A stretch of DNA of 64,000 bases from Myxococcus guangdongensis (GTDB lineage Bacteria; Myxococcota; Myxococcia; Myxococcales; Myxococcaceae): contig NZ_JAJVKW010000011.1 of NCBI RefSeq assembly GCF_024198255.1, positions 62,001 to 126,000 of the forward strand, in the 5' to 3' direction. How positions within the stretch are numbered: the stretch's first letter is position 1; every line of letters begins with the position of its first letter. Shown piece by piece: positions 12,337 to 17,998 of this stretch. Both the position numbers and the translations under genes were made by a program. The notes under the pieces were generated by a model that searched no databases, was not told the origin of the DNA, and saw only the letters and a program-made list of their open reading frames with translations.

Positions 12337-13188
12337 ATGAGACGCTTCGCAGCCCCCTCATCTCCGCCCAGTGACGCCGGTGCCCCTTTCGTGGAGTCGC
12401 TGGAGCAGGTGAGCGAAGAGGAAGTGAAGGACCGTCAATTCGTGACGGCGCTCGCGCGTGGGTTGGAGATTTTGCGGGCCTTCACCCCGCAGCGCCCCAT
12501 GCTCGGCAACCAGGAGCTCGCGGCGAGCACGGGGCTGCCCAAGCCCACCATCTCGCGGTTGACGCATACGCTGACGCGGCTGGGGTACCTCACGTACTCG
12601 GAGCGGCTGGGCAAGTACCAGCTCGGCACGCGGGTGCTCGCGCTCGGCTTCGCGGCGCTCTCCAACATGGGCGTGCGCGACGTGGCCCGGCCACTGATGC
12701 AGGACCTGGCGGACTACGCGAACGTCCCGGTGTCGCTGGGCAGTCGGGACCGGCTCAACGTGGTGTACGTGGAGCACTGCCGCTCCACCGCGGCGGTGAC
12801 GCTGCGGCTGGACATCGGCTCTCGGCTCCCCCTGGCCACCACGGCGATGGGCCGGGCGCTGCTCGCCGCGCTCCCCGAGGGCGAGCGTCGCTACCTCATG
12901 GGCCACATCGCCAAGCGCGAGCCGGAGAAGTGGCCGCGCCTCCAGGCGAGCATCGAGCAAGCGCTGGAGGAGTACCGCACGCACGGCTTCACGCTCTCCG
13001 TCGGGGACTGGGACCGGGACGTCAACGCGGTGGGCGTGCCGTTCGTCGCGCCGGATGGCAGCGGGCTTCTGGCCTTCAACTGCGGCGGGCCGTCGTTCCT
13101 GCTGCCGCGTCAACGACTGCTGTTGGACATCGGTCCCCGACTGGTGAACCTGGTGCGCAACGTCGAGGCGGCGCTGCAGCGCCGCTGA
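12337..13188 (+). CDS. IclR-family transcriptional regulator
   Basis: A 283-residue regulator. After a flexible 30-residue N-terminus comes the winged helix (FVTALARGLEILRAF, then NQELAASTGLPKPTISRLTHTL as the recognition region), then an IclR effector domain with VYVEHCRS, LPLATTAMGRALLAA and the C-terminal GVPFVAPDG and LVNLVRNVE. The ATG at 12337 fits family length; the open frame runs further upstream but through the operator and promoter region. It is divergent from the beta-oxidation operon and followed after 11 bases by an acyl-CoA dehydrogenase gene. Such regulators often sense aromatic or dicarboxylic catabolites; the ligand here is unknown. Confidence 0.92.
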   Translation: MRRFAAPSSPPSDAGAPFVESLEQVSEEEVKDRQFVTALARGLEILRAFTPQRPMLGNQELAASTGLPKPTISRLTHTLTRLGYLTYSERLGKYQLGTRVLALGFAALSNMGVRDVARPLMQDLADYANVPVSLGSRDRLNVVYVEHCRSTAAVTLRLDIGSRLPLATTAMGRALLAALPEGERRYLMGHIAKREPEKWPRLQASIEQALEEYRTHGFTLSVGDWDRDVNAVGVPFVAPDGSGLLAFNCGGPSFLLPRQRLLLDIGPRLVNLVRNVEAALQRR

Positions 13189-15437: not shown

Positions 15438-15455
15438 ATGAAACAGATGAAACAG

Positions 15456-15530
15456 TGGCCCTGGCAGGAATCGAACCTGCGGCCTCTCGGTTCGCACCCG
15501 AGCGCTCTGAATCCGCTGAGCTACAGGACC
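15456..15530 (-). tRNA. tRNA-Arg(GCG), unusual anticodon
   Basis: Second tRNA of array 1. Acceptor GGTCCTG/CAGGGCC (one G-U), U8 present, D stem GCTC/GAGC, anticodon stem CTCGG/CCGAG with loop GUGCGAA, T arm GCAGG/CCTGC, A73, no CCA encoded. Anticodon GCG would read CGC/CGU arginine codons, which most bacteria read with an inosine-modified ACG anticodon. Position 32 is a purine, also uncommon. Confidence 0.8.
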
Positions 15531-15548
15531 TGAAGGTGTCGCGAAGAG

Positions 15549-15621
15549 TGCCCCGTACGGGAGTCGAACCCGTCTTCCCGCATAGAGAGTGCGGTGTCCT
15601 GCGCCAATAGACGAACGGGGC
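15549..15621 (-). tRNA. tRNA-Glu(CTC)-like
   Basis: First tRNA of array 1 in transcription order. Acceptor GCCCCGT/ACGGGGC, then a Glu-like 5' half (TTCGTCTA...GGACACCGC), anticodon stem CCGCA/TGCGG with loop CUCUCUA, T arm ACGGG/CCCGT, A73, no CCA. Anticodon CTC reads GAG. U33 is kept, but position 37 is U instead of the usual purine. Confidence 0.8.
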
Positions 15622-15891: not shown

Positions 15892-16027
15892 AGGCTCGTG
15901 TCACAGGTGCGAGCACGCGATGCGCGGCGGCCTGCGAGCTCTCTGGCGCCATCCCCTTCGCCCGGCTCCAAAGCCCGCGCGGAATGTGCCGCCCGGCACT
16001 ATCCTCCCTCCAGGAGGAGACCGAGAG

Positions 16028-16795
16028 ATGCTCGAGGGTGGATACACGGAGCTGGCACCGCCGGACTTCATGGCCGACCGGGTGGACGCCCTCTGGCGCT
16101 ACGTCACTCCGTCCATCGCCACTCCGGGCCTCCACCGCATCCTCCCTGATGGCTGCACGGACCTCATCGTGCGCTTCCCGGACGCGCACGCCCTGGGCCG
16201 TGGCGACGAGCCCCGCGTGACGGTGGTCGGCCCCATGGAGTCCTTCGCGCTGGTGAAGGAGACACCCGGCTCGGTGAGCCTCGGAATCCGGCTCAAGCCC
16301 GGCTGGGCGCTCGCGCTGCTCGGCGTGAGCCCTCGCGAGTTGTGCAACCTCAACGTCTCCGTGAAGGACTGCGCGCCGGCCCTCGTCGCCCTCCAGCAAC
16401 GCCTGTCCGCCTGCCGCTCCCTCGAGCACGCCCAGGCCCTGCTCCAACAGGAACTCCTGCGCCGCAATGCCTCGCCGCGGCACCTGCCGAAGGCCCGGAC
16501 CGCCCATGCGCTCCAGTGTCTCCAGGCCTCGGCGGGACAGGTGCGCATGTCCGCGCTGGCGCGCGAGCTGGGCATCAGCGAAAGAACCCTGCACCGCGAC
16601 ATCCTGGAGGAAGCAGGCACGGCGCCCAAGCTGCTCGCCCGCGTGCTGCGCTTCCAACGTGCGCTGGGGCAGCTTCGCGCGGGACATGCATCACTGAGCA
16701 CCGTGGCGCTCGACTGCGGCTACTCGGACCAGGCCCACTTCACCCGGGAGGTGCGAGAGCTGGCGGGAGTGTCTCCCACCGGCCTGCTGGAATGA
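16028..16795 (+). CDS. AraC-family transcriptional regulator
   Basis: A 255-residue regulator. The N-terminal half (LWRYVTPSIATPGLHRILPDG, then DLIVRF and VVGPMESFALV) resembles the cupin-like DUF6597 sensor domain. The C-terminal AraC HTH runs from about residue 160: MSALARELGISERTLHRDIL is the first HTH, and TVALDCGYSDQAHFTREVREL the second, with AGVSPTGLL at the end. The ATG at 16028 has a GGAGGAGA site 8 bases upstream; an open frame extends further but has no such site. It is divergent from micro-ORF 1 across about 195 bases, so it could control the adjacent tRNA unit, or the VOC gene downstream. Effector unknown. Confidence 0.88.
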   Translation: MLEGGYTELAPPDFMADRVDALWRYVTPSIATPGLHRILPDGCTDLIVRFPDAHALGRGDEPRVTVVGPMESFALVKETPGSVSLGIRLKPGWALALLGVSPRELCNLNVSVKDCAPALVALQQRLSACRSLEHAQALLQQELLRRNASPRHLPKARTAHALQCLQASAGQVRMSALARELGISERTLHRDILEEAGTAPKLLARVLRFQRALGQLRAGHASLSTVALDCGYSDQAHFTREVRELAGVSPTGLLE

Positions 16796-16882
16796 GCCGC
16801 GTCCGATTTCTTCAAGACACCCCCGCGGGGCCATGAGAGACCGCCTCCATCGGCGTCCTCACTCCCACCTCGGAGCCCCCCC

Positions 16883-17272
16883 ATGAAGCTCGGTTATGTC
16901 ATCCTCTACGTCCCGGACGTCCCCGCCACCCTCGATTTCTACGAGAAGGCCTTCGGCCTGAAGCGGCGCTTCCTCCACGAGAGCAACTCGTATGGCGAGA
17001 TGGAGACGGGCACCACCGCCCTGGCCTTCGCGTCGGAGGAGATGGCCAGCCTCAACGGGCTCACCGTGCGCTTCCACCGGCCGAAGGAGACTCCCGCCGC
17101 AGTGGAGGTGGCGCTCGTCACGCCCGATGTCGCGGGCGCCTACGAGCAGTCGGTGAAGGCAGGCGCAAGCCCCGTCCAGCCGCCCAAGCAGAAGCCCTGG
17201 GGACAATCGGTGGCCTACGTGCAGGACCTCAACGGCGTGCTGGTGGAGATCTGCTCCCCCATCTCCGCCTGA
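16883..17272 (+). CDS. VOC-family protein (glyoxalase/bleomycin resistance fold)
   Basis: A 129-residue single-domain protein with two beta-alpha-beta-beta-beta modules: KLGYVILYVPDVPATLDFYEKAFGL at the start (first module; segment given in part as VPATLDFYEKAFG), a central SNSYGEMETG, and a C-terminal AYVQDLNGVLVEICSPIS with the usual metal-ligand Glu. The family includes lyases, dioxygenases and antibiotic-binding proteins, so the reaction cannot be assigned. It follows the AraC regulator by 87 bases and probably shares its control. Its stop codon is 6 bases from the end of the convergent tRNA array 2. Confidence 0.85.
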   Translation: MKLGYVILYVPDVPATLDFYEKAFGLKRRFLHESNSYGEMETGTTALAFASEEMASLNGLTVRFHRPKETPAAVEVALVTPDVAGAYEQSVKAGASPVQPPKQKPWGQSVAYVQDLNGVLVEICSPISA

Positions 17273-17278
17273 GGTGAA

Positions 17279-17349
17279 TGGAACCGCCGGGAATCGAACC
17301 CGGACCGCTCGGATGCCGTCCGAGCATTCTCCCGTTGAACCACGGTCCC
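17279..17349 (-). tRNA. tRNA-Ala(GGC)-like with C33
   Basis: Eighth and last tRNA of array 2. Acceptor GGGACCG/CGGTTCC contains the G3-U70 pair that AlaRS recognises, with A73. U8 present, D stem GTTC/GAAT, anticodon stem CTCGG/CCGAG with loop ACGGCAU (anticodon GGC), T arm CCGGG/CCCGG, no CCA. Position 33 is C in place of the near-universal U. Confidence 0.75.
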
Positions 17350-17437: not shown

Positions 17438-17452
17438 ATGAAACACTGCACA

Positions 17453-17527
17453 TCTGGATGACAGGATTTGAACCTGCGGCCTCACGGATCCGAACCGTGC
17501 GCTCTGGCCAGACTGAGCTACATCCAG
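17453..17527 (-). tRNA. tRNA-Pro(CGG)
   Basis: Sixth tRNA of array 2. Acceptor CTGGATG/CATCCAG starts with the C1-G72 pair typical of Pro, with A73. U8, D stem GCTC/GAGC, anticodon stem CACGG/CCGTG with loop UUCGGAU (anticodon CGG), T arm GCAGG/CCTGT, no CCA. U33 is normal; position 37 is A where proline tRNAs normally carry a methylated G. Confidence 0.85.
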
Positions 17528-17551
17528 AAAACCACCACTGCCTGCTGCGAG

Positions 17552-17627
17552 TCGGGACGACTGGATTCGAACCAGCGACCTCGCGCACCCCAAGCGCGCG
17601 CTCTATTCCAAGCTGAGCTACGTCCCG
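17552..17627 (-). tRNA. tRNA-Pro(GGG)
   Basis: Fifth tRNA of array 2. Acceptor CGGGACG/CGTCCCG with C1-G72 and A73, U8, D stem GCTC/GAGC, anticodon stem CGCGC/GCGCG with loop UUGGGGU (anticodon GGG, U33, G37), T arm GCTGG/CCAGT, no CCA. This one looks fully canonical. Confidence 0.88.
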
Positions 17628-17637
17628 TGAAACACCA

Positions 17638-17711
17638 TGCCGCGAGCGGGAGTCGAACCCGCAACCTCTGCGTTCTGAGCGCAGCACCTCTACCAATTGG
17701 GCTACCGCGGC
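17638..17711 (-). tRNA. tRNA with Leu anticodon (CAG) on a class I body
   Basis: Fourth tRNA of array 2. Acceptor GCCGCGG/TCGCGGC, U8, weak D stem (GCCC/GAGG), anticodon stem CTGCG/CGCAG with loop CUCAGAA (U33, anticodon CAG), T arm GCGGG/CCCGC, A73, no CCA. The variable loop is only five bases (AGGTT), whereas bacterial tRNA-Leu has a long class II variable arm. Confidence 0.75.
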
Positions 17712-17743
17712 GTTTAAAACAGACAACAACAACAGTGATTGAA

Positions 17744-17815
17744 TGGAGCCGCCGGGGATTGAACCCGGGACCTCTCGGATGCGAACCGAGCGCTCTCCCG
17801 CTGAGCTACGACCCC
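17744..17815 (-). tRNA. tRNA-Ala(CGC)
   Basis: Third tRNA of array 2. Acceptor GGGGTCG/CGGCTCC with G3-U70 and A73 (Ala identity), U8, D stem GCTC/GAGC, anticodon stem CTCGG/CCGAG with loop UUCGCAU (U33, anticodon CGC), T arm CCGGG/CCCGG, no CCA. Canonical in shape; reads GCG. Confidence 0.87.
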
Positions 17816-17829
17816 AATGTGTTTCAAGA

Positions 17830-17901
17830 AGCAGCCTGCGGGAATCGAACCCGCGGGGTCCTGAGTGGCTCTCAGGTGCCTTTCCCCTCGGCCAAGGCTG
17901 C
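17830..17901 (-). tRNA. tRNA-Gly(GCC)-like with A33
   Basis: Second tRNA of array 2. Acceptor GCAGCCT/AGGCTGC with C2-G71 and U73 (Gly identity), U8, D stem GCC/GGC, anticodon stem CCTGA/TCAGG with loop GAGCCAC (anticodon GCC), T arm GCGGG/CCCGC, no CCA. Position 33 is A, and G32 can pair with C38, leaving a five-base loop. Confidence 0.72.
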
Positions 17902-17926: not shown

Positions 17927-17998
17927 AGCAGCCTGCGGGAGTCGAACCCGCGTGGTCCTGAGTGGCGCTCAGGTGCCTCGCCTCTCGGCCAAGGCTGC
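17927..17998 (-). tRNA. tRNA-Gly(GCC)-like with C33
   Basis: First tRNA of array 2 in transcription order and a near copy of the next one (same acceptor, D stem, anticodon stem and T stem). Loop GCGCCAC gives anticodon GCC with C33, and G32 can pair with C38. C2-G71 and U73 identity elements are kept, no CCA is encoded. Confidence 0.72.

Follow-up and report, generated by a model that had tools for sequence, protein, structure and literature searches.

A tRNA-Leu(CAG) of class I build within a supernumerary tRNA array of Myxococcus guangdongensis and its relatives

Introduction

On a plasmid of Anabaena sp. PCC 7120 lies a long tRNA operon (trn) with 26 genes, which TrcR is described as repressing and translation stress as inducing (PMC10272220). 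In the tRNA array units carried by mycobacteria and by their phages, the most widespread gene is reported to encode an HNH endonuclease, though it is not universal (PMC5966550, PMC12803027). Long tRNA arrays, the HNH genes within them, and a tRNA-Leu(TAG) with a short variable loop from a mycobacterial cluster are already known from these reports and from PMC6582537. The locus analyzed here lies in a stretch of 64,000 nucleotides from Myxococcus guangdongensis (the window), where 11 tRNA genes of a supernumerary split array form a first block of 8 and a second block of 3.

A long variable arm is normal in bacterial tRNA-Leu, an unpaired position 13-22 is counted as a leucine feature, and the tyrosine synthetase needs the arm of its own tRNA. 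By definition, a class II tRNA has a variable region of 10 nucleotides or more (PMC7609411). Leucine identity in E. coli is attributed to A73, A15-U48, G18G19, A20a, and contacts between the D and T loops, and leucyl-tRNA synthetase (LeuRS) of the E. coli type is stated to require A73 and the corner formed by the D and T loops, and neither the anticodon nor the long arm (PMC9976931). The same review names C2-G71 as a negative element against SerRS and arm size as the major serine element. It also takes the opposite view to class I tRNA-Leu being a general class. Within an incomplete coverage of the literature, no paper was found that describes class I tRNA-Leu as one general class or addresses its breadth, and none that links the term tRNA array with Myxococcus.

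Structure of the tRNA-Leu(CAG)

ARAGORN calls the minus strand of 17638-17711 as tRNA-Leu(cag), and the gene scores 61.4 bits with RF00005, for which the cut-off is 29. Read in the tRNA sense, the acceptor strands are GCCGCGG and UCGCGGC, the T loop is UUCGACU, and the anticodon loop, CUCAGAA, contains U33; the 74 bases of the gene do not encode the CCA end. With 5 nucleotides, the variable region is shorter than that of a class II tRNA. A preceding sequence-only reading had described the anticodon CAG, U33, A73, and a five-base variable loop, all of which are borne out by the sequence itself, ARAGORN, and RF00005.

The same reading noted a weak D stem, and the Rfam alignment agrees, with three pairs (G10-U25, C11-G24, and C12-G23) and C13/A22 as the sole non-standard pair. 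Among the 79 unique class I tRNA-Leu sequences of the family (46 with CAG, 23 with GAG, and 10 with CAA), the equivalents of these three pairs are formed in 78, 79, and 79, and position 13-22 is C/A in every one. In a control register, with the 3′ side of the D stem slid by one base, two of the four pairs fall to 0/79. Among the matches listed, 61 of 63 viral class II tRNA-Leu likewise have no pair at position 13-22. Since the pairs are kept throughout the family and the same position is open in viral class II tRNA-Leu, the weak D stem is a leucine trait; decay of the stem was considered and rejected, as an unpaired 13-22 is usual for tRNA-Leu.

The anticodon-stem pairs 27-43, 28-42, 29-41, and 30-40 are formed in all 79 family sequences with two to four pair types each, and the stems of the family are maintained by double changes. 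An unconstrained energy fold of the tRNA does not give a cloverleaf and is no stabler than shuffled sequences (z −0.99), so the structural case rests on conservation. A comparison of conservation between the tRNA and its flanks was set aside, as the pattern that selected its rows lies within the tRNA, and parts of neighboring tRNAs fall into the flanks.

Leucine identity features

Six leucine features were scored: A73, A15-U48, GGxA in the D loop, unpaired 13-22, U54/A58, and U55C56. The tRNA at 17638-17711 has all six, together with C2-G71. The complete set occurs in 79/79 family class I tRNA-Leu and 5/5 class II tRNA-Leu, and in 3 of the 346 non-Leu class I tRNAs at those loci. A15-U48 is found in all 79 family members and, among the matches listed, in 152/154 other bacterial and 209/223 viral class I tRNA-Leu, with G15-C48 in 4 of the viral ones.

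Isotype scoring, which the sequence-only reading had proposed, was carried out with a home-made classifier that is weak on other isotypes as well (right for Ala in 6/45 and Tyr in 1/14) and too weak to decide, and it came out divided. With class II tRNA-Leu as the only leucine training, 27/79 family class I tRNA-Leu are called Leu, and the window tRNA is ranked as Arg, Asp, and then Leu. Restricted to the D domain and base 73, the classifier puts Leu first for 4/79 and outside the top six for the window tRNA. Once trained on viral class I tRNA-Leu, the classifier calls all 79 Leu. Class I tRNA-Leu is thus a coherent family. Given the outcome of training on class II tRNA-Leu, an origin of this family from class II by simple loss of the arm cannot be asserted. 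In some viral members, from the 157 of at least 237 loci sampled, the D arm resembles that of class II, a hint that there may have been more than one origin.

The array in the window and in the genome

Membership of the tRNA-Leu(CAG) in an array was not part of the sequence-only reading. Its parts and its neighbors are listed in Table 1. Between the two blocks (15920-17272) lie genes for an AraC-type regulator (HTH_18, DUF6597) and a glyoxalase-like protein; AraC-type-like and glyoxalase-like proteins are present at 6 and 5 of 20 array loci compared. A scan for promoters and terminators found no promoter-like site and no terminator.

Table 1. Features of the tRNA-Leu(CAG) gene and of the array tRNA genes in the window
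Feature	Position	Strand	Evidence
Class I tRNA-Leu(CAG)	17638..17711	-	ARAGORN; RF00005 61.4 bits; 6/6 leucine features
Anticodon CAG	17675..17677	-	Sequence reading; ARAGORN position 35
Variable loop of 5 nt, AGGUU, last base U48 pairing with A15	17663..17667	-	Sequence reading
D arm (3 pairs; no pair at C13/A22), its loop containing A14, A15, G18, G19, A20a	17686..17702	-	
Discriminator A73	17638..17638	-	Sequence; A73 in 79/79 family class I tRNA-Leu
tRNA-Gly(gcc), C33 in place of U33	17927..17998	-	ARAGORN; loop by eye
tRNA-Gly(gcc), A33 in place of U33	17830..17901	-	ARAGORN; loop by eye
tRNA-Ala(cgc), G3-U70 retained	17743..17816	-	ARAGORN; pair by eye
tRNA-Pro(ggg)	17551..17627	-	ARAGORN
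tRNA-Pro(cgg)	17452..17528	-	ARAGORN
tRNA-Asp(gtc), C33	17366..17437	-	ARAGORN; loop by eye
tRNA-Ala(ggc), C33, G3-U70 retained	17279..17349	-	ARAGORN; rest by eye
tRNA-Glu(ctc), second block	15548..15621	-	ARAGORN
tRNA-Arg(gcg), second block	15455..15530	-	ARAGORN
tRNA-Val(gac), second block, C33	15364..15437	-	ARAGORN; loop by eye

The genome of 11.2 Mb has five class II tRNA-Leu genes (TAA, CAG, GAG, TAG, and CAA; 82-88 nt as called). Beside the housekeeping tRNAs stands a second, divergent tRNA set, comprising the 11 in the window and others on contigs 2 and 15, among them class I Leu(gag) and Leu(caa). This set is redundant with the housekeeping tRNAs, the five tRNA-Leu included. A search for LeuRS gives one match over the curated cut-off (1012 bits) and ten more rows, all of them partial, that stay below it. 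In this genome, the Lys and Asn tRNAs of the array are each present at two places about 9 kb apart (G000:C2:4027-4192 and 12992-13158), as would result from the insertion or duplication of a segment.

The array in related genomes

Of the 96 family genomes, 58 have a BLAST match to the window tRNA at E<=0.001. The matches in G066, G069, and G113 are short and weak, which leaves 55 genomes with at least 64 of the 74 bases matched: 27/27 in the window's genus, 6/6 in g8, 16/16 in g31, 2/4 in g32, 3/7 in g33, and 1/1 in g34. A lone or chance tRNA at this position was rejected on the strength of these relatives. In G083 (g31), where the match spans 64 bases, there is no Leu call by ARAGORN at the site (L138). 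Cognate anticodons are retained over the six genera. In G015, a GAG-type Leu body carries a CAG anticodon, an anticodon swap that stays within leucine.

Four genomes of genera g33 and g34 have a single array, with 24-27 tRNAs that cover 18-20 amino acids. In the window's genus the array is split, and its part B holds 20 tRNAs in G002, 19 in G009, and 4 in G017. Set against a size of at least 20 clustered genes, the window has 8 + 3, and the relatives have 24-27 (four genomes), 20 (G002), and 19 (G009). In the stretches fetched from g31, Leu(cag) has one or two array tRNAs alongside. Being absent or reduced in part of the family, the array is dispensable.

Across 13 array loci of 8 genomes, 210 of 221 anticodons start with G or C, and the set exactly matches 29 of the 31 NNC/NNG sense codons, TCG and ACC being the ones missing; a Ser(cga) is present in G011. 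C33 is frequent in family array loci, in counts that take in a few housekeeping tRNAs: 22/24 for Leu(gag), 14/16 for Asp, 22/26 for Gly(gcc) (plus 2 with A33), and 9/15 for Val(cac). Leu(cag) keeps U33 in 46 of 47 family cases. The frequency of C33 in several members means that decoding by the array may be relaxed.

An HNH gene of about 180 amino acids (PF14279) follows the Leu tRNAs of part B, outside the window. ORF clustering places it at 9/11 part-B loci, the remaining two being stretches of other places, and tblastn finds it at 29 loci of 19 family genomes, the window genome included. It was not found by tblastn in the L068 stretch of G025 or in the g32 stretches fetched. Weaker relatives of the HNH gene occur at 12/118 bacterial loci among the matches listed, and at 3/33, 8/120, and 8/157 viral loci.

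Several array members are peculiar in other respects. By eye, the array tRNA-Trp, -Cys, and -Met have very short D loops (L059, L062, and L068; array B of G013, G014, and G025), which is unusual for bacterial elongator tRNAs; their anticodons and discriminator bases look cognate. One body among the array tRNAs has the anticodon CAT (Met) in two genomes, G005 and G006 (L060, L065), and CTT (Lys) in G023 (L064), an apparent anticodon shift. A protein of ThiF/E1-like appearance, judged by eye, lies near array B at four loci (L080 9565-10146, L094, L095, and L109).

Class I tRNA-Leu beyond the family

The D-arm pattern combined with the anticodon CAG is found in 33 viral and at least 118 bacterial stretches. 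Of the latter, 80 were sorted by title into 49 Actinomycetes, 14 Planctomycetes, 10 Myxococcota, 3 Bacteroidota, 2 Elusimicrobia, 1 Ruminococcus, and 1 Chthoniobacterales. Because CAG is built into this pattern, the leucine share of such scans proves nothing, and scans free of the anticodon or anchored on tRNA-Asn and tRNA-His were therefore made.

In the anticodon-free scan of the D arm, all 122 carriers among the matches listed have Leu anticodons (TAA 47, TAG 39, CAA 22, GAG 7, AAG 5, and CAG 2), out of 985 class I tRNAs at those loci. A further 90 class I tRNA-Leu were found as neighbors, without the motif; 88 of them could be parsed, and among these matches listed A73 is present in 88 and 13-22 is paired in 7.

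A viral sample not chosen on leucine was drawn from at least 237 loci with tRNA-Asn and tRNA-His patterns, of which 157 loci are a subset; it gives 1428 unique parsed tRNAs, with 3 of 1508 tRNA calls unparsable and dropped. Among the matches listed, class I and class II forms number 40 vs 63 for Leu, 3 vs 77 for Ser, and 1 vs 42 for Tyr. Two of the three short Ser rows resemble, by eye, misread bodies of the His pattern and were kept in the count. The class I share is thus 40/103 for Leu against 4/123 for Ser and Tyr together (Fisher p ~5e-12; among the matches listed). Loss of the arm far more often in Leu than in Ser and Tyr is what would be expected if LeuRS dispenses with the arm, and retention of the arm in Ser fits its size as the major serine element, both as described in PMC9976931. 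All six leucine features are present in 33/40 class I and 57/63 class II viral tRNA-Leu and in 12/1162 non-Leu class I tRNAs, again among the matches listed.

Phage tRNA-Leu of class I length are also annotated as such, with 75 nt in Streptomyces phage CeilingFan and 74 nt in Mycobacterium phage Finemlucis (lengths from annotation). The stretches fetched from Caulobacter phage CcrRogue and phage DSS3_MAL1 contain solely Leu of 82-88 nt. A phage BLAST with the window tRNA matches 41 records, most of them under features annotated as other isotypes, in a search that is not isotype-specific. The corresponding plasmid search gives two weak records, and the phage and plasmid matches are tRNA-sized only.

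Charging and function

The tRNA at 17638-17711 is probably a leucine tRNA of class I build that belongs to a supernumerary array, is charged by LeuRS, and reads CUG as leucine. The array is of a kind found on mobile elements and is now chromosomal in Myxococcus and its relatives, with a split in the window genome. Once transcribed, the tRNA would be completed by the host CCA-adding enzyme, host LeuRS would attach leucine to it, and CUG would be decoded as leucine. The arm could be lost with no change of identity because, for LeuRS of the E. coli type, A73 and the D/T-loop corner are required, and not the anticodon or the long arm. By analogy, the array is most likely an auxiliary set, either silent until translation is impaired, as in Anabaena, or resistant to anticodon nucleases, as proposed for phage tRNAs; in either form it may serve as a back-up under impaired translation or after damage to housekeeping tRNAs.

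The strongest competitor, itself improbable, is that a mobile tRNA array has left this tRNA behind as a relic, silent or decaying, with no part in translation. Redundancy with five housekeeping tRNA-Leu would fit a relic, as would the 38 of 96 family genomes with no match at E<=0.001, the shrinkage of the array to four tRNAs in array B of G017 and to a few near Leu in the g31 stretches, the C33 of several members, and the empty promoter scan. A decaying gene is at odds with six leucine features in 79 of 79 family sequences, with stems maintained through double changes, and with cognate anticodons retained over six genera.

It is highly improbable that the second tRNA set supplies amino acids to a non-ribosomal enzyme or acts as regulatory RNA. 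Such a role would suit the presence of C33 or A33 in several members, and also the very short D loops seen by eye in some Trp, Cys, and Met members whose acceptor-end features, also by eye, are kept. Anticodons, however, are cognate even in Leu, whose synthetase is described as ignoring them (PMC9976931), and 29 of the 31 NNC/NNG sense codons have a matching tRNA in the set, which together indicate a role in decoding. Among seven proteins scanned near the arrays, no tRNA-using enzyme was found.

The sequence-only reading had left open whether LeuRS or another synthetase charges the tRNA, or whether it has no use in translation. Charging by another enzyme, with CUG partly misread, is the least probable reading, and misreading of CUG is unlikely: the class I body and the placing of Arg and Asp just above Leu by a classifier trained on class II tRNA-Leu speak for it, the weak classifier being its sole positive support, and they are opposed by the 6/6 leucine features, the link of the D arm to Leu anticodons in 122 of 122 carriers among the matches listed, the 79/79 Leu calls after training on class I tRNA-Leu from elsewhere, and the G015 anticodon swap that remains within leucine. 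Of the options, charging by LeuRS, for which one match lies over the cut-off, is thus favored by sequence comparison.

A wider reading is offered tentatively, as a possibility that may well prove wrong: class I tRNA-Leu could be a widespread and largely overlooked kind of bacterial-type tRNA on phages and mobile arrays, in which loss of the arm is selected because host nucleases, or other enzymes that recognize the long arm, then miss the tRNA, leaving charging by LeuRS intact, and which Ser and Tyr are barred from by synthetases that need the arm.

Class I forms make up 40 of the 103 viral tRNA-Leu among the matches listed and occur in bacteria of several phyla too. If they are charged as proposed, the experiment of deleting the arm in front of LeuRS has been run many times by nature, and annotation that distrusts short-armed tRNA-Leu needs correction. 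In the myxobacterial array, a second tRNA set stands on the chromosome, with roughly one tRNA for each NNC/NNG codon, and its role as back-up or in tRNA damage is directly testable.

Comparison with known systems

Animal mitochondrial tRNA-Leu resembles the window tRNA in having no long arm, and there A73 and A14 are reported to specify leucine (PMC9976931); it differs in being organellar and charged by a mitochondrial LeuRS, according to the same review. Phage tRNAs with altered anticodon loops are likewise extra and diverged from those of the host, and are proposed to survive host anticodon nucleases (PMC10264068). That proposal concerns the anticodon loops of phage tRNAs, whereas the present case is one of a lost long arm and a chromosomal bacterial array.

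With the trn operon of Anabaena (PMC10272220), the myxobacterial array shares a supernumerary set for most amino acids beside a full housekeeping set. It also shares an HNH gene, which in Anabaena is described as being under the same repressor as trn. The Anabaena operon lies on a plasmid and is governed by TrcR, whereas the myxobacterial array is chromosomal. The array units of mycobacteria and phages (PMC5966550, PMC12803027) are alike in their clustered tRNAs (20 or more there), their redundancy with the host set, and their embedded HNH endonuclease gene. Those units are reported from mycobacterial plasmids, phages, and chromosomes, whereas the present array is chromosomal over six myxobacterial genera and split in the window genome. 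The closest counterpart of the tRNA itself is the tRNA-Leu(TAG) of a cluster in the Mycobacterium mucogenicum clade, which is also borne on an array and has a short variable loop (PMC6582537). It is presented as an example from one clade rather than as a class, with the anticodon TAG, whereas the anticodon of the tRNA described here is CAG.
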